This document shows, one piece after another, positions 1,715 to 16,268 of a stretch of DNA of 21,274 bases. The stretch comes from a virus, in IMG/VR virus record IMGVR_UViG_3300032560_000140, positions 1 through 21,274 of that record. The stretch is one strand, 5' to 3'. How positions within the stretch are numbered: position 1 is the first letter of the stretch; every line of letters starts with the position of its first letter. A program made the translations under genes and the position numbers. The notes under the pieces are model-generated. The model had not been told where the DNA came from, made no database searches, and saw only the letters and a program-made list of their open reading frames with translations.

Positions 1715-2617
1715 TTAATTTGCCTCTTGCAAGTCATTTGTGCTGATTTCTTCAAACACTTTGTTAATAGGCAAACTATTAATCTTTTGTTGCCTATTAA
1801 TTTTTTTATCAAGCTGCCTTATGACGTCAGCAAAATCTTTGGCTAGCATATGATCTAAACTATTAATTTTTAGATAATTACATAATGCTATTTCTTCGCT
1901 ATCCGACAATATTATTTTGCTTTTAACAATCTCTAATTGTTCGGCAGTAATGGTAGCGCCAACATCAACTAGATCTACAACACTAACAATATCTTTCGGC
2001 TCTTTGCCTTCCATTTCTTCAAAGGTTGGATGCACACCAAGAACATCTGAAAAGGCTTTTCTAAGTGCTTGAGCTTCTGTACATTTGGCTATTTGTCCAA
2101 AAGGTCTTTTTGCCCACATAGCATTAGGGGTTATTTCATTTTTTCCTCTGGTTGCATAGTTTTCTTTCCAATACTCTTTAGCAGAAAAGAAAGAACTCTT
2201 ACCACTAGTAGGGTTATATTTTTCTACAGTCATCTTACACCATTCAGGATAAGATATTTCCATTGTTCCTATCGTTTCTGTTATCGTTGGACCGTACTCA
2301 GGTTCGCTAATCCCTAAATATAGGCCAGTTCTATCAGCGTCAATACGATATGATGCAATCCCAGGCATAAGGACATCCCTATATTCATAACTGCCAGTTT
2401 GACTGTTTTTTACACTCATAGGCACAATATGAACAGGTTTAGCAATCGGATCATACTTTTTAGCGTTACAGTATGCTAAAACCATTCCTATAGATTCATC
2501 TTTAGCCCCAGGGTAAATCGAATTTTTAAGGGTATAATAGAGGTTGCTATCAGTATCCGCTAAAAGTTCTGTTAACGTTTGTTTTGGTTTAATTGGCTTT
2601 GCATTTGAGCTAAGCAT
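1715..2617 (-). CDS. bet: Single-strand annealing recombinase, Redbeta/Bet (RecT superfamily)
   Basis: The product is 300 aa. The start is fixed by AGGAGG six nt upstream of the ATG at 2617. The family pattern is clear: GAKDESIGMVLAYCNAKKYDP near the N-terminus (where lambda Bet has a .L….A..Y.LNP segment), a central VLMPGIASYRIDADRTG segment, and W..RP..QI.KC.EAQALRKAF about residues 165-190 (lambda: hPkRMlrhkAmiQcARlAFGF). The last 90 residues are a charged, variable tail. The protein anneals complementary single strands exposed by the partner exonuclease, for phage recombination and repair. It overlaps the end of the exonuclease gene by 46 nt, consistent with translational coupling. Full length, with no lesions seen. 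Confidence 0.88.
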   Translation of the reverse strand: MLSSNAKPIKPKQTLTELLADTDSNLYYTLKNSIYPGAKDESIGMVLAYCNAKKYDPIAKPVHIVPMSVKNSQTGSYEYRDVLMPGIASYRIDADRTGLYLGISEPEYGPTITETIGTMEISYPEWCKMTVEKYNPTSGKSSFFSAKEYWKENYATRGKNEITPNAMWAKRPFGQIAKCTEAQALRKAFSDVLGVHPTFEEMEGKEPKDIVSVVDLVDVGATITAEQLEIVKSKIILSDSEEIALCNYLKINSLDHMLAKDFADVIRQLDKKINRQQKINSLPINKVFEEISTNDLQEAN

Positions 2618-3462
2618 TTTAATCCTCCTGCTTGATTATCTAATTCTTTCATTTTTGCCCAATTAGGTAATGATATTAATTGGAATTTTTCTTCATACCC
2701 AGGCCACTCTTTATACCTTACACATTCGGTATATAAAGCTGCGCCATCTAAGTATTCTAATCTGCCTTGTGCTAATGAGCTTTCGTCTAAAGTAAAGCAC
2801 GCTGTTAAATAAGGCGGCTTTTTCTCAACTACGAAAAAGGCAAAGAATCTTTTTTTACCATCTAATTGTTTTAATGCATCTATCTGCATAGCTGCTTGTC
2901 TATGATAGCCATACTGATAAATAGAATTTGAAAATGCTTTAATCGAATCAGTAGTTTTAAGGTCGATTATTAATTTATCATTAAAAATATCTGGTCTTGA
3001 TCTAAGTGGTGTATCAAATGTGCCACCTTCCCAAAATATAGATTGCTCAACTTTACCATCTTTAAGTTCATTCCAGATAGGATGAGCAGATATAACGTTA
3101 GCCATGTCTTTAATGTCTTCCCATTCACCAGTTCTTAAAATATCTCGTCCATTAGCTGCAATTTCAGCTTGTGCGTAAATCTCTTTACCAATCTTTGTAG
3201 ATAAATTCACTGATTCTGTCATACAATAAAAGGTATTATCGAATTTTTTAGGCTCCAATACAAGTGTATGAACAGCACGTCCTAGCTTATATTTTTCAGC
3301 TTGTTTCTTTAATTCTTTTTCGTCTAACTCTGTACGTTTTACGTGATATTCATAGTAATACCGTTTAGGACAATCTAGTATCAAATTGATACCAGTTGAG
3401 CTAATACTATTGTCTGCGTGATATTCGTTAATATCTAAATTGTCGTATATACCGTTTATCAT
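2572..3462 (-). CDS. RecE/exodeoxyribonuclease VIII-like PD-(D/E)XK exonuclease
   Basis: The product is 296 aa. The start at 3462 has AGGAG 8 nt upstream. Motifs of the RecE C-terminal nuclease family (DUF3799-type, PD-(D/E)XK fold) are present: an N-terminal SSTGINLILDCPKRYYYEY segment (about 21-39), GRAVH with His65, Glu139 (VEQS), R.RPD with Asp158, DLKT with Asp167 and Lys169, then YGYHRQAAM with Gln189. Asp158, Asp167 and Lys169 should form the metal site. The enzyme is expected to resect one strand of double-stranded DNA ends, leaving single strands for the annealing protein encoded next. Adjacency to Bet gives a RecE/RecT- or Exo/Beta-like recombination pair. It follows the small upstream ORF by 2 nt and shares its leader motif (GGAGAATAATAATG). 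Confidence 0.85.
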   Translation of the reverse strand: MINGIYDNLDINEYHADNSISSTGINLILDCPKRYYYEYHVKRTELDEKELKKQAEKYKLGRAVHTLVLEPKKFDNTFYCMTESVNLSTKIGKEIYAQAEIAANGRDILRTGEWEDIKDMANVISAHPIWNELKDGKVEQSIFWEGGTFDTPLRSRPDIFNDKLIIDLKTTDSIKAFSNSIYQYGYHRQAAMQIDALKQLDGKKRFFAFFVVEKKPPYLTACFTLDESSLAQGRLEYLDGAALYTECVRYKEWPGYEEKFQLISLPNWAKMKELDNQAGGLKCLAQMQSQLNQNKR

Positions 3463-3752: not shown

Positions 3753-3932
3753 ATGTTGGATAAAACAGAAAAAGAGCTATTAGGGCCAGGCTTAAGCGTG
3801 AGATTGACAGCTATAACGCGTAATAAATTAAGCGTACTTGCACGAAAAAGGGGTATGTCGCCATCTAGTTTGGCTAGATTTTGGCTGGAAGAAAGAATAA
3901 AAAAAGAAGATAATAATAAAAAAGGGGATTGA
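3753..3932 (+). CDS. Small ribbon-helix-helix (Arc/CopG-like) DNA-binding protein
   Basis: The product is 59 aa. ATG 3753 has GAGGTGG about 9 nt upstream. Residues 13-50 fit a ribbon-helix-helix fold: a short beta strand GLSVRLT, helix A (AITRNKLSVLARKRG), a turn MSPSS, and helix B (LARFWLEERIKKE). The tail is Lys/Asp-rich. Proteins of this type dimerise and insert the paired strands into the major groove of palindromic operators; Arc and Mnt of P22 are the classical phage examples. The gene diverges from the recombination operon, whose promoter carries an 11-bp palindrome, so it is a likely regulator of that operon. Its stop sits 2 nt before the next gene's start. Confidence 0.7.
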   Translation: MLDKTEKELLGPGLSVRLTAITRNKLSVLARKRGMSPSSLARFWLEERIKKEDNNKKGD

Positions 3933-3934
3933 TT

Positions 3935-4309
3935 ATGACAACAACAAATGCATTAGTTTATTACCACGAACTAGTTAAAGCCGGAATGCCGGACGAACAA
4001 GCTTTTAATCAAGCAATGGCATTTGATAATGCTATTAGTCATTTGGCAACGAAAGACGAGCTAAAAACAGAAATATTCTTACTAAGAAAAGATATACAGC
4101 GCATTGATACTAAATTACAAGATTTTGCGACTAAAGAAGAGCTAAAAACAGAAATATCCTTACTAAGAAAAGATCTTGAGGTAAGATTCTCTGAAATAGA
4201 TGCGAACTTTAAATTAATAGATGCTAATTTCGCCACTATGCGAATTTTTGGCTGGGCTATTATTGTTATTGTGATTGTACCGATTTCTAAGATAGTTTTT
4301 GGTTGGTAA
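3935..4309 (+). CDS. Coiled-coil membrane protein A (DUF1640-like)
   Basis: The product is 124 aa. I chose ATG 3935 over the in-frame TTG at 3929 because the AAGGGG site lies too close to the latter. The protein has a conserved N-terminal head (ALVYYHELVKAGMPDEQAFNQAMAF), the signature ATK.EL, a coiled coil (about residues 40-98) and one C-terminal hydrophobic helix (IFGWAIIVIVIVPISKIVFGW). This layout resembles DUF1640/CCDC90-type proteins. A 36-bp block, 4058-4093, repeats at 4139-4174 with one mismatch, duplicating ELKTEI.LLRKD. It is the first of five related proteins in the window and is immediately upstream of a second one. Expected location is the membrane with the coil in the cytoplasm; function is unknown. 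Confidence 0.75.
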   Translation: MTTTNALVYYHELVKAGMPDEQAFNQAMAFDNAISHLATKDELKTEIFLLRKDIQRIDTKLQDFATKEELKTEISLLRKDLEVRFSEIDANFKLIDANFATMRIFGWAIIVIVIVPISKIVFGW

Positions 4310-4330
4310 TATATAAAAATGGGGTTAAAG

Positions 4331-4693
4331 ATGACAAATAAAGCATTACAGTACTTTTTAGATTTAAAGGCTAATGGCGCAACAGATGCAGAAGCCAAAG
4401 CACAAACAGAGGCGCTGACCTCTGTATTAGAGGGCGTTGCGACTAAAGAAGATTTAAAAATTGTAAGAGAAGATTTATTGGCGACAAAAACAGAATTAAT
4501 TGCAAAGCTTGCGACTAAAGAAGAATTAACTAATTTAGGAATAAGAACTGACTCTAAATTTGATTTAGTTAGGAAAGACATACTAAACTTGGAGGATAGA
4601 ATAGACATTAATCATCGGTGGATCATGGCATTTTTAATAGCCAATTTTGTTGCGTTTGCAACATTAATTATAACTAATGCTATGCGAGTCTGA
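4331..4693 (+). CDS. Coiled-coil membrane protein B (DUF1640-like)
   Basis: The product is 120 aa. The start ATG 4331 is preceded by ATGGGG, which I read as the ribosome site rather than as a start; an identical arrangement precedes protein D at 8848. The head NKALQYFLDLKANGATDAEAKAQTEAL matches paralogues A, D and E. Two ATKE(D/E)L signatures follow and a coil extends to about residue 95. A terminal membrane helix (IMAFLIANFVAFATLIITNAM) follows. The 14-bp string GCGACTAAAGAAGA occurs once in A and twice here, showing recent common ancestry or conversion between the two genes. The 21-bp gap from A suggests a shared transcript. Confidence 0.75.
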   Translation: MTNKALQYFLDLKANGATDAEAKAQTEALTSVLEGVATKEDLKIVREDLLATKTELIAKLATKEELTNLGIRTDSKFDLVRKDILNLEDRIDINHRWIMAFLIANFVAFATLIITNAMRV

Positions 4694-5653: not shown

Positions 5654-5929
5654 ATGGGATACAATAGTACTAAGCATAATTTGGCAGCATTATTAGAACT
5701 AATTAATGAGTTTGTACAAGACAATCCTTTAAAAATAGAAGAATTGCCGGACTATCTTAAACAATTACCAGATAGAGAGCAGCAAGTATTAAACTTTTAT
5801 TATAGGGATGGACTCACCCTTAGAGAAATAGCTGAAATTTTTGGGGTGAGTTGGTCTCGGCCGTTTGAAATTAAAAGTAAGGCGATAAGAAGAATAAGAA
5901 AAAAAATTACAATAGCTAAAAACAAATGA
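5654..5929 (+). CDS. Sigma70 region 4-like HTH protein
   Basis: The product is 91 aa. Residues 38-83 closely follow the -35-recognition domain of sigma70/RpoD: LPDREQQVL (38-46), a loop YYRDG, the helix-turn-helix LTLREIAEIFGVSWSR (54-69) and a terminal KSKAIRRIRKK helix. The first 37 residues are an acidic helical segment unlike sigma region 3, and regions 2 and 3 are absent, so it is not a full sigma factor. It could bind promoter DNA as a late-gene activator or act as a small-terminase-like HTH. Its TGA overlaps the ATG of the terminase large subunit (ATGA at 5926), so the two are coupled. The pattern also resembles phage DUF1492/ArpU-type regulators, which sit just before terminase genes. 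Confidence 0.75.
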   Translation: MGYNSTKHNLAALLELINEFVQDNPLKIEELPDYLKQLPDREQQVLNFYYRDGLTLREIAEIFGVSWSRPFEIKSKAIRRIRKKITIAKNK

Positions 5930-8286
5930 CTGAAGACGAGATTAAAACACGCCAGCATTTAAAAGATAACTTTTTACATTATGCATCACGTTGTCTTAAA
6001 ATTCGCACTAAGCAAGGCGAGATTTCGCCGTTTATTTTAAATAAAGCGCAAGAATATATCCATCAGAAATTAGAAGAGCAAAGACTACAAACAGGTAAGG
6101 TTAGGGCGCTGATCTTGAAAGGGCGTCAGCAGGGCTGCTGTTTTTCACCAGACATGCGTGTACTAACATCTGACTATAGGTGGGTACCTATTGGCTCCAT
6201 TAATGTTGGCGACAAGCTGGTTAGTTGCGATGAAAACTCCGTAGGCTTTACTAAAATAGGGCGTAAACAATCAAGAAAATTCAGAACATCTACGGTAGAG
6301 GCCAAGGCAATTTTTTATAAGCCAACTTATGAAGTTTTATTTGATAATGGTGCACGGCTAAATGTAACGGCCGAACATCGAATGCTTAGCAAGCAAAGAG
6401 GGGGTTGCGAACAAAGGTGGCGACTCGTAGCGGACTTTAAGGTGGGCGATTATATTAGGATTGCAACAAGGCCACCAAACTATAAATCTAGTTATGAAGA
6501 CGGATGGATGGGAGGATTGATTGACGGCGAAGGAAGTATGAGGGGCAAAAATGGCGGAACAAAAAGAGTTAGTATACACCAGATTGCTGGGCCAATTTTA
6601 GACAGGATAAAGGCATATTTCAAAAACATTGATATGCCATATTGCGAGGTGTTGGATCGCCGAACTTCGGGGGTAAGCAGTAAGCTTGGGGATAAGCCAG
6701 TACATCGCCTAGATATACACAGATTACCGTACATAATAGAGTTATTTTCAAGATGTAGGCCAACAAGATTTACTAATGATGAGTGGCATTTGGGACACGA
6801 GTTACCTGGCAAAGCAGCTACAGACGGTATTAAACCTTGGGCAAAAATAATTAAAATAACTCCTTTAAAAAAACAAAAAGTTATCGACTTACAAACTAGC
6901 GAAAAGACGTATATGTGCGAAGGACTAGTGTCGCATAACTCAACTTATGTGGGCGGACGCTTCTATCATAAGACCACCCATAATAAGGGTACACAATGCT
7001 TTATCTTAACACATGCACTGGATGCTACCAACAACCTATTTAAAATGGCTCAGCGTTTTTACCAGAACACGCCAAACTTAGTTCAGCCCGATATCAGTAC
7101 TAACAACTCTAAAGAGCTAATCTTTGGGCGCTTAGATAGTGGATATAAACTAGGAACAGCCGAAAACAAAGCGGTCGGTCGTTCCAGCACCATCCAATTA
7201 TTCCATGGCTCGGAGATTGCTTTTTGGGCAAACGCCCAAGAACATACTAAGGGTATACTGCAAGCGGTGCCTGATTCTACTGGTACAGAAATCATACTGG
7301 AATCTACCGCTAATGGTGTCGGTAATTATTTCCATCAAATGTGGCAGAAAGCAGAAAGCGGCATGTCTGATTTTATTGCGGTATTCGTGCCTTGGTTTTG
7401 GCAAGAAGAATATAAAAGGTCAGTGCCGCCAGACTTTAAACCTAACCATATAGAGTTACGTTTAATTGAAGCTTATCGGTTAACCTTAGAGCAAATAGCT
7501 TGGCGGCGATTTAAAATTACTGATTTATCAGTTAACGGTCAAGACGGGGAGAAGAGCTTTTGCCAGGAATATCCATGTAATCCCAATGAAGCTTTCCAAC
7601 TTAAAGGTGAGAATTCATTTATAGATTCCTCAACAGTGATGCGTGCCAGAAAAGGAGAAGCCGAAAAATATGGGCCTTTAATTATGGGCGTTGACCCTGC
7701 AAGATTTGGTGATGATCGCACATCAATTATCTTTAGGCAAGGCCGTGTGGCATTTGGGTTACAAAGTTATACTAAGAAAGACACAATGGAGGTAACTGGC
7801 ATTGTTCATTCTTTGATTGAACAATATCGGCCTTTAAAGGTCTTTGTAGATGTGGGCGGCTTAGGAGCTGGGGTTGTAGATAGGCTAAATGAATTAGGCC
7901 ATAAAGAGGCCGTAGTTGCGGTTAACGCGGGTTCAAAAAGCTTAGATGATCAGAAGTATTCAAATAAGCGAGCTGAAATGTGGGGCAAATGTGCAAATTG
8001 GTTAGAGGATATCCCAGTACAAATACCAGATACAGACAGCTTACATGCGGATTTATGTGGAATACGCTATAGTTTTGATTCCAACTCTAGGTTAGTTATG
8101 GAGAAAAAGGAGGACATGAAAAAGAGGGGAATAAGATCGTCAGACGAAGCAGACGCGCTTTGTTTAACTTTTGCTTATCCTGTAACAGCATTTAGGGAAC
8201 AGCCCAACCCAAACGCACCAATACTTAAATCATTGGCACAAGATTTTAATACTAAACTGACAGCCATTAGGAGATCTAGGAAATAA
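5926..8286 (+). CDS. Terminase large subunit (packaging ATPase/nuclease) containing an intein
   Basis: The gene encodes 786 aa, of which 519 remain after removal of residues 72-338 as an intein. The host protein is the DNA-packaging motor. Its ATPase P-loop is LKGRQQGC|STYVGG, interrupted between Cys71 and Ser339. The Walker B acid is Glu430 in GSEIAFW and motif III is ESTANG (459-464). The C-terminal RNase H-like nuclease has Asp590 (GVDPARFGDD), Asp642 (VFVDVGG) and Asp743 (SDEADAL). All key residues are present, so the spliced protein should be active. The lysine of the P-loop is Lys65, the displaced position common in terminases (K.RQ.G.ST). The gene is coupled by a 4-nt overlap to the sigma-like gene. 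No terminator is seen before the convergent cassette 9 bp downstream. Confidence 0.92.
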   Translation: MTEDEIKTRQHLKDNFLHYASRCLKIRTKQGEISPFILNKAQEYIHQKLEEQRLQTGKVRALILKGRQQGCCFSPDMRVLTSDYRWVPIGSINVGDKLVSCDENSVGFTKIGRKQSRKFRTSTVEAKAIFYKPTYEVLFDNGARLNVTAEHRMLSKQRGGCEQRWRLVADFKVGDYIRIATRPPNYKSSYEDGWMGGLIDGEGSMRGKNGGTKRVSIHQIAGPILDRIKAYFKNIDMPYCEVLDRRTSGVSSKLGDKPVHRLDIHRLPYIIELFSRCRPTRFTNDEWHLGHELPGKAATDGIKPWAKIIKITPLKKQKVIDLQTSEKTYMCEGLVSHNSTYVGGRFYHKTTHNKGTQCFILTHALDATNNLFKMAQRFYQNTPNLVQPDISTNNSKELIFGRLDSGYKLGTAENKAVGRSSTIQLFHGSEIAFWANAQEHTKGILQAVPDSTGTEIILESTANGVGNYFHQMWQKAESGMSDFIAVFVPWFWQEEYKRSVPPDFKPNHIELRLIEAYRLTLEQIAWRRFKITDLSVNGQDGEKSFCQEYPCNPNEAFQLKGENSFIDSSTVMRARKGEAEKYGPLIMGVDPARFGDDRTSIIFRQGRVAFGLQSYTKKDTMEVTGIVHSLIEQYRPLKVFVDVGGLGAGVVDRLNELGHKEAVVAVNAGSKSLDDQKYSNKRAEMWGKCANWLEDIPVQIPDTDSLHADLCGIRYSFDSNSRLVMEKKEDMKKRGIRSSDEADALCLTFAYPVTAFREQPNPNAPILKSLAQDFNTKLTAIRRSRK
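6139..6939 (+). mobile_element. Intein with LAGLIDADG homing endonuclease motif in the terminase P-loop
   Basis: A 267-aa in-frame insertion (residues 72-338 of the terminase). It starts with Cys72 in block A (CFSPDMRVLTSDYRWVPIGSI, then NVGDKLVS). Block B is NVTAEH with Thr148 and His151. It ends with KVIDLQTS…YMCEGLVSHN, whose His337-Asn338 is followed by Ser339 as the +1 nucleophile. These are the residues needed for standard protein splicing. Between the splicing blocks lies one clear LAGLIDADG-type motif, GGLIDGEGS (residues 196-204), with acidic Asp200. A second copy is not obvious, so the endonuclease may be a homodimeric single-motif type or degenerate. Splicing restores the P-loop GRQQGCST. 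Confidence 0.9.
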
Positions 8287-8545: not shown

Positions 8546-8848
8546 TTAAAACTTCCCGAAATACTTTAATATTACCCCTACAATAATCGGAGCATAAATA
8601 AATCCTAAGATTGAATATACCATAAAATACTTTAATTCAGATTTAACTTCTTTAATGTCACTTTTTAACTCAGTTCTCAATGCTTTAATCTCGGCCTTTA
8701 CATCTTTAATCTCGGCCTTCAAGTCAGATTTAGTTGCCAAACCTTGTAACATACTTTCTAATGCAATAAGCTGGGCTTCGGCTTGTTCCTCTGGAACTCC
8801 GCTTGCTTTTAAATCTTTTAGATATTGTATAACCCTAGCGCTATCCAT
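8546..8848 (-). CDS. Coiled-coil membrane protein D (DUF1640-like)
   Basis: The product is 100 aa. The start at 8848 (MDSARVIQYL) has GGGGA about 7 nt upstream; an in-frame ATG at 8860 overlaps that site and is less likely. The head (RVIQYLKDLKASGVPEEQAEAQLIAL) and ATKSDL signature match paralogues A, B and E. The coil alternates KAEIK.V / KAEIKAL / ELKSDIKEV units and is followed by a terminal hydrophobic helix (FMVYSILGFIYAPIIVGVIL). It is the promoter-proximal gene of a two-gene minus-strand cassette placed between terminase and portal. This location and orientation are typical of a phage moron, expressed independently of the late operon. Confidence 0.75.
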   Translation of the reverse strand: MDSARVIQYLKDLKASGVPEEQAEAQLIALESMLQGLATKSDLKAEIKDVKAEIKALRTELKSDIKEVKSELKYFMVYSILGFIYAPIIVGVILKYFGKF

Positions 8849-8879
8849 ATATATCCCCATTTTATAGTTATTTCCTTAG

Positions 8880-13017: not shown

Positions 13018-13299
13018 TTAATGGAAAAACAATACTTTAACTGTTCCGCCAGCAAGAGCCAAGAGACCACCCCACATAAATTTACGGATGTCGCCTTTTA
13101 TTTCTTTTACGTCTGCCTTTAATTCTTTTACGTCTGCCTTTACGCCGTTTAAATCTTCTTTTACGCTGGTTAAATCTTCTTTTGTAGCCACATGATCTAA
13201 TGCAGAATTTAAAGCATAGGTTTGGGTTCTGGCTTGTTCCTCTGGAACTCCCCCAGCTTTTAGTTCTTCAAAAAATTTTAATGTATTAATATGTTCCAA
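13018..13299 (-). CDS. Coiled-coil membrane protein E (DUF1640-like), upstream of vapD
   Basis: The product is 93 aa from a TTG start at 13299, which has AGGGGGG 7 nt upstream and begins exactly where the paralogues begin. An ATG at 13374 in frame would lie upstream of the predicted promoter. The head ([27 protein letters not shown]), ATKEDL signature, coil of [14 protein letters not shown] heptads and C-terminal hydrophobic helix ([19 protein letters not shown]) match protein D closely. It ends 10 bp before vapD. As the partner gene of a toxin-like ribonuclease it could be an antitoxin, a membrane anchor or an unrelated member of the same cassette; none of these is shown by sequence. Confidence 0.75.
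13097..13182. repeat. Two pairs of 21-bp repeats in the coil of protein E
   Basis: Units 13097-13117 and 13118-13138 agree at 20 of 21 positions; units 13141-13161 and 13162-13182 agree at 19 of 21. Each unit encodes one heptad ([14 protein letters not shown]-type and [14 protein letters not shown]-type). This mirrors the 21-bp repeats in protein C. Confidence 0.85.
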
Positions 13300-13320
13300 T
13301 TTATTGCCCCCCTTTTTAAC

Positions 13321-13349
13321 ATTATACCTATCTAACAAACTATAAACAA
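13321..13349 (-). promoter_or_regulatory. Promoter of the protein E-vapD cassette
   Basis: Reading leftward, TTGTTT (13349-13344), a 17-bp spacer and a perfect TATAAT (13326-13321). Transcription would start near 13314, 15 nt before the TTG start codon at 13299 and just in front of its AGGGGGG ribosome site. This supports both the start-codon choice and independent expression of the cassette. Confidence 0.6.
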
Positions 13350-13410
13350 GCACTAGAATTGCCGCGACTAACATAAATCACATTAAATAACAAGCCCCTA
13401 CAAAAAATAC

Positions 13411-15710: not shown

Positions 15711-16268
15711 ATGGCGCTTAAAACGGTCTTATGTAAAAGATGTGGAAAAGAAATCCAAAGAAGACAATGGGGTATTTGTAAGGAATGTTATGAGAAAGGT
15801 AAAGCTGAAAGAAGAGCTAAAGTTAAAGCTAAAATTCGTGCCGAAAAAAGCTTGCCTCCTTATGGTTCAGGGCTTCGGAACCCCATTTGTTTACTTTGTG
15901 CGAGTCTTAAAGAGAATAAAGATAGTGGTTATTGCAATAGTTGCAAAAGAGAAGCTGCTAGCGCTAGGCGCATTATGCTTAAAAAAAATAATCCTAACTT
16001 TATTCAAGAAGAAAGAAGCCGCAGAAAAGAAAAGTACTCTAGGTGTGCTGAATATAGACATAAAGTCAAAATTCAGAATTTTACCTGGCAAGCTATCAAA
16101 TTCGGTGTTCTTGTTCCTCAACCATGCGAAGTTTGTAGTAAAACAGAAAATATTGATGCTCATCACACAGACTACTCAAAACCTCTTGATGTTAGGTGGT
16201 TATGTAAAAGTTGCCATATTAAACACCATAGAGAACTGGAGCGCAATAAAGCAACTGAACAATCTTAA
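15711..16268 (+). CDS. HNH endonuclease with zinc knuckles
   Basis: The product is 185 aa. The C-terminal 50 residues are a zinc-bound HNH (beta-beta-alpha-metal) nuclease of the T7-like phage type: C139EVC142, ENIDAHH (His151-152) TDYSKPLDV, WLC165KSC168H169, then HH172-173. His151 or His152 is the expected general base. The N-terminal part carries further paired cysteines (Cys8/11, Cys23/26 and two pairs around residues 60-80) that look like zinc knuckles for DNA binding, followed by a basic helix. It is inserted between coat and the next structural gene, without a homologue in the P22 order. The likely role is a free-standing homing endonuclease; general phage DNA nicking is the alternative. 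Confidence 0.85.
   Translation: MALKTVLCKRCGKEIQRRQWGICKECYEKGKAERRAKVKAKIRAEKSLPPYGSGLRNPICLLCASLKENKDSGYCNSCKREAASARRIMLKKNNPNFIQEERSRRKEKYSRCAEYRHKVKIQNFTWQAIKFGVLVPQPCEVCSKTENIDAHHTDYSKPLDVRWLCKSCHIKHHRELERNKATEQS

Follow-up and report, generated by a model that had tools for sequence, protein, structure and literature searches.

A class 1 intein with a single LAGLIDADG motif interrupting Walker A of a P22/Sf6-like terminase, and signs of its recent mobility

The terminase large subunit (TerL) of an uncultivated virus is interrupted in its ATP-binding motif by 267 amino acids, which raises the questions of what this segment is, whether it still moves between genomes, and whether it affects DNA packaging. 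P-loop inteins of phage terminases are already known, mainly from mycobacteriophages (PMC5050341). The window, i.e. the whole stretch of DNA analysed here, is a 21,274-base fragment of this virus (IMG/VR record IMGVR_UViG_3300032560_000140). It encodes a P22-type portal, an Sf6-type small terminase, a scaffold, a major head protein and a P22-type head closure protein, and because of these gene types the phage is assigned to the P22/Sf6-like tailed phages. A RecT-type annealing protein (1715-2617) and an exonuclease VIII-like nuclease (2572-3462) are both encoded on the minus strand. Between the small and large terminase genes lies the gene for a 91-aa protein (5654-5929) with a sigma-70 region 4 domain (2.5e-12). 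After the major head gene and before the next gene, an ORF at 15711-16268 has an HNH-like C-terminus (HHTDYS..CKSCHIKHH; phrog_2340 endonuclease) and is likely a free-standing homing endonuclease. Several similar small coiled-coil/membrane proteins are encoded amid the head genes on both strands (3929-4309, 4319-4693, 8546-8860 and 13018-13374). Two of them are CCDC90-like, and in relatives, copies that are ∼77% alike are found in inverted orientation.

The TerL gene occupies 5926-8286 on the plus strand and encodes a precursor of 786 aa (phrog_2 terminase large subunit, 5.6e-27). The N-extein (71 aa, 5926-6138) ends with the opening residues of Walker A (KGRQQGC, 6118-6138), and the C-extein (448 aa plus stop, 6940-8286) begins with the +1 Ser of the same motif (STYVGG), as judged from alignment with intein-free alleles and T4 gp17. 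The latter is the closest solved terminase, and is matched in the PDB by the intein-free homologue L012 (3.2e-6). Since SRQLGK-TT of gp17 aligns with GRQQGC^ST of the window, the segment separates the position of the Walker Lys from the Thr/Ser, in keeping with the ATP-binding location named in a preliminary description of this DNA.

The segment (6139-6939, TerL residues 72-338) is a class 1 intein, and splicing is predicted from its sequence and modelled fold. It is absent from the related records L012-L023 and L025, among which are alleles with TerL flanks ∼99% identical to those of the window. After in silico excision the window reads KGRQQGC-STYVGGR, as these records naturally do apart from F or Y in GGR[FY], and the junction is exactly C|S. 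The window and L012 differ at 0 of 213 positions in the N-extein and at 11 of 1347 in the C-extein. Ten further records from different metagenomes carry the intein at the same base. The borders in the preliminary description were thus exact, and its full set of splicing residues is present: Cys1, TAEH (intein residues 77-80), the terminal HN (266-267) and the +1 Ser. In an alignment of 57 family members Cys1, block-B His80, H266 and N267 are invariant (57/57), and the block B Thr77 position holds T in 40 members and S in 17. Cys1, the Thr-x-x-His of block B, HN^S, a Hint fold, in-frame insertion and empty homologues with an exact junction all accord with class 1; the presence of Cys1 and an Asp at the F:4 position (VIDL; position assigned by eye) separate the intein from class 3.

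Hint and LAGLIDADG profile searches, proposed in the preliminary description, were run on the segment. Pfam Hint was placed at residues 1-92, and Intein_splicing (E=1.4e-6) and NCBIfam NF038136 (2e-8) were both matched below their curated cut-offs for this single sequence, with LAGLIDADG_3 at 0.017. Intein_splicing is matched by 51 of the 57 family members. As the profile scores of the lone segment are weak, its identity is decided by the comparative evidence, i.e. the empty alleles, the invariant residues and an AlphaFold2 model. This model reached a pLDDT of 94.4 when built on the alignment of 57 relatives, and only 30 with a two-sequence alignment. Foldseek matched it to the PI-PfuI, Mxe GyrA and Ssp DnaB inteins (E to 2.5e-9). 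These share the Hint fold with the window intein, and I-MsoI and I-AniI share the LAGLIDADG domain, all at a sequence identity of ∼10-14%. PI-PfuI is much larger, with 454 residues and a two-motif endonuclease.

The model divides the intein into an all-beta N-terminal Hint part (aa 1-112, 6139-6474, border approximate; block B TAEH at 6367-6378), an endonuclease domain (aa 113-228, 6475-6822), and a C-terminal Hint part with blocks F and G (6823-6939, ending EGLVSHN), the last of which was delimited by alignment with the C-terminus of the Mxe GyrA intein. The endonuclease domain has one LAGLIDADG core with the order helix-2 strands-helix-2 strands-helix (H119-131, E132-135, E143-149, H152-163, E169-173, E188-194 and H196-206). 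The only motif copy, GGLIDGEGS (intein 125-133, 6511-6537), is the single one reported in the preliminary description. Searching with the family profile gave hits to I-MsoI, I-AniI and I-HjeMI (profile positions 110-209), and Pfam LAGLIDADG_3 is matched by 18 of the 57 members at E≤0.01. A related intein of only 176 aa at the same site (L180 and L182) lacks the endonuclease part, and the endonuclease is therefore a separable module.

Intein-plus and intein-free genomes occur in two clades. Clade A comprises the window, L002, L003 and L011 as intein-plus and L012-L019 and L096 as intein-free records; clade B comprises L004-L010 (intein-plus) and L020-L023 and L090 (intein-free). Plus and minus alleles are nearly identical inside each clade, and the exteins differ by ∼12% between the clades. 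With the intein set aside, L004(+) and L021(-) differ at 21 positions in 7,970 bp; 5 of these lie beyond -5,900, and the remaining 16 all fall within -7..+42 of the insertion. The same 16 recur among the 35 differences in 10,893 bp between L006(+) and L022(-). A single 49-bp replacement placed at random over 7,970 bp would cover the junction with a chance of ∼0.6%. In this tract the intein-plus alleles of clade B are identical to the window lineage for 50 bp (about -9..+41; window 6130-6138 and 6940-6980), with 0 differences where ∼6 are expected; outside the tract only 0.35% of 49-bp windows show no difference between A and B. In L025, a third and intein-free lineage, the longest run identical to L012 of clade A, 83 bp, falls exactly at -3..+79. 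The base C at +39 is found, within clades A and B and L025, only in intein-plus alleles, and these are of both clades. Co-conversion of flanks is a known mark of phage intron homing (PMC2988022) and of homing in general (PMC3943268), and the clade B footprint looks like such co-conversion. Whichever its direction, the exchange in clade B had the insertion site at its centre.

None of the records found is the donor in the clade B event. Between A and B the inteins have a dS of 1.84 and a dN of 0.071, compared to an extein dS of 0.60-0.66 (Fisher p 2e-7 for the higher synonymous divergence of the inteins). As the A and B inteins differ so strongly at synonymous sites, the donor would have had an A-like flank next to an intein of the other type rather than the window's own. 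The high intein dS was also considered as a sign of independent invasion, but it is only consistent with this, because the genomes are mosaic and other genes are 78-93% identical. No discrete conversion tract was found in clade A: the window and L012-L019 are identical from -293 to +38, but L014 and L019, both intein-free, share a longer identity. In clade B a second tract lies at +691..+813 (equivalent to window 7630-7752, around DPARFGDDR), where L005, L008 and L009 show 33 differences within ∼120 bp from L004 and L006 in otherwise near-identical genomes; its donor was not found among the records.

We regard it as highly likely that this is a class 1 intein with a single LAGLIDADG motif that sits in Walker A of a P22/Sf6-like terminase and, at the DNA level, spreads by homing. 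As judged from the residues and the fold, the intein would be translated in frame and then excised through attack by Cys1, transfer to Ser+1, cyclisation of the Asn and ligation of the exteins, which would restore KGRQQGCST. The endonuclease, presumably acting as a dimer, would cut the conserved site in intein-free TerL genes of co-infecting relatives, and repair off the intein-plus copy would insert the intein with a short donor flank. The RecT-type annealing protein and the exonuclease that the phage encodes may perform this repair, which is plausible for tracts this short.

An alternative that we consider unlikely is that the intein-plus allele is ancestral in clade B and that the intein was lost when a diverged intein-free allele served as the template for conversion, perhaps by repair after cutting; homing would then be old and not recent. 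Such a loss would look no different in the sequences, because the empty tract of clade B is itself unusually divergent: its 16 differences from clade A in 49 bp exceed those of every other 49-bp window outside the tract, and an exact-pattern scan for this L020-type tract in other backbones matched only intein-free records of clade B. Loss does not readily account for an intein-plus tract equal to the flank of the other lineage, nor for the restriction of the C at +39 to intein-plus alleles. The mobility of the intein appears to be recent, and the clade B event was probably a gain. The preliminary description had asked whether homing is still active, and for the most part the answer seems to be yes, given the near-isogenic plus/minus genomes with their tract, the selection on the endonuclease described below and the occupation of this site by one intein family in very different terminases.

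It is considerably less probable that the endonuclease is already dead, with the intein being passed on vertically and through ordinary recombination between phages. This reading draws on the single motif, on a target without a palindrome, and on short-tract recombination elsewhere in the genomes of this phage group. A single-motif LAGLIDADG enzyme is expected to act as a dimer of the I-CreI type on a near-palindromic site. Homodimeric LAGLIDADG enzymes are known (PMC3943268). Near the insertion site the best symmetry is 6 of 12 pairs, which is the commonest value elsewhere in TerL, and no palindrome rises above background, a point that also counts against the homing reading. Against a dead enzyme, the dN/dS between clades A and B is 0.039 for the intein and 0.036 for the endonuclease domain at a dS of 1.6, which indicates strong purifying selection on the domain. 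The ratio is likewise low in other intein pairs, though dS is near saturation there. The acidic motif residues are also retained (D129 in 56/57, E131 in 54/57), the conversion footprint falls exactly at the insertion site, and a dispensable endonuclease has been deleted, as in L180 and L182. The intein is very probably functional and recently mobile.

That the intein is retained as a switch, delaying packaging until splicing, is very improbable. With its Walker A interrupted, the unspliced precursor would be expected to be inactive, and such a role has been discussed for TerL inteins generally (PMC5050341). However, near-isogenic phages lacking the intein occur at least as often in this set, and in E. 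coli the splicing of related TerL inteins proceeded readily (PMC5050341). The intein is dispensable to the phage, because intein-free siblings near-identical over 8-11 kb exist, and the proposal in the preliminary description that splicing times late assembly is left unsupported. Finally, a lineage-specific terminase domain or an assembly chimera, which the sub-threshold Pfam scores of the single sequence might suggest, is for practical purposes refuted by the exact empty alleles, the invariant splicing residues, the intein-like model and the same-base insertion in different metagenomes; homologues with the segment as a normal domain, or a missing Hint match, were looked for and neither was found.

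Among the listed annotated-phage matches, which are Pham3880-type and portal inteins, the closest is the mycobacteriophage Pham3880-g intein (cluster C1/Bixzunavirus, e.g. LRRHood gp245), with 29% identity over the full 267 aa (E 1e-25). It is similarly compact (∼269 aa), with one motif (GFMDGEG), Cys1 and HN^S, and is reported to splice (PMC5050341). Unlike the window intein, it is inserted at SSPY^SK, where the ATPase part of a terminase-like protein lacking a P-loop ends, and its host belongs to another protein family. Mycobacteriophage TerL1-a, compared by its description (PMC5050341), is inserted in TerL between the P-loop Lys and Thr, which is the position in the window, where Cys replaces Lys. 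A one-residue shift of site is reported between TerL1-a and TerL1-b; for TerL1-b, splicing was observed, as was cleavage of the intein-free allele by its endonuclease (PMC5050341). Two LAGLIDADG motifs (blocks C and E) are present in TerL1-b and TerL1-c (PMC5050341), compared to one in the window family. The TerL-like intein of Roseicitreum antarcticum plasmid pRA01 (WP_092892172.1) is 35-37% identical, with 265 aa and a single motif, and occupies the homologous P-loop site (KARQLGF^TT). Its host protein is annotated as hypothetical, adjoins a terminase small subunit gene, and is very unlike the terminase of the window.

The same intein family is found at the homologous P-loop site in ∼50 further viral loci, with terminases diverged beyond 20% identity. 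In L156, L157 and L172 the intein lies one codon earlier (KGRQQG^CTTY), which resembles the shift between TerL1-a and TerL1-b. The inteins are more alike than their host terminases, as in L113 and L167 (0.60 identical, exteins 0.18), and the reverse is seen in L150 and L152 (0.56, exteins 0.98). These discordant histories point to repeated invasion of the P-loop site. A scan of genome contigs with two close inteins gave no matches, and a broader alignment gave 16 loci, mostly partial actinobacterial matches. The compact single-motif family is also seen in a Gordonia phage portal protein (L110) and in the DNA polymerase of an M. intracellulare plasmid (L114). Other insertions occur in TerL as well. 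Three relatives of the window TerL (L063, L068 and L080) have an uninterrupted P-loop and a different, larger intein with two LAGLIDADG motifs in the Walker B region (H[AG]^..N^SEV[AG]FW). In the TerL ORF near position 4031 of L060 a third site is occupied, in the C-terminal nuclease part (DAL^C..N^CLTFA), by an insertion with Hint-like ends and no evident LAGLIDADG motif.

More tentatively, and with a probability that we place well below even, the family may home across unrelated terminase families at Walker A codons, with cutting that turns the site into a gene-conversion hotspot and so also rewrites intein-free genes. It would then leave resistant, synonymously recoded targets of the L020 type, and intein-less footprints such as that of L025.

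The window intein is a further P-loop TerL intein, with unusually clean comparative evidence of recent mobility. Recent movement of an intein in wild phages can be seen directly in genome pairs that differ almost solely by the intein and the 49-bp tract around it. The family supplies intein-plus, intein-free, endonuclease-less and intein-swapped alleles of one gene, and this set makes the homing cycle, target resistance and DNA recognition by a single-motif enzyme directly testable.
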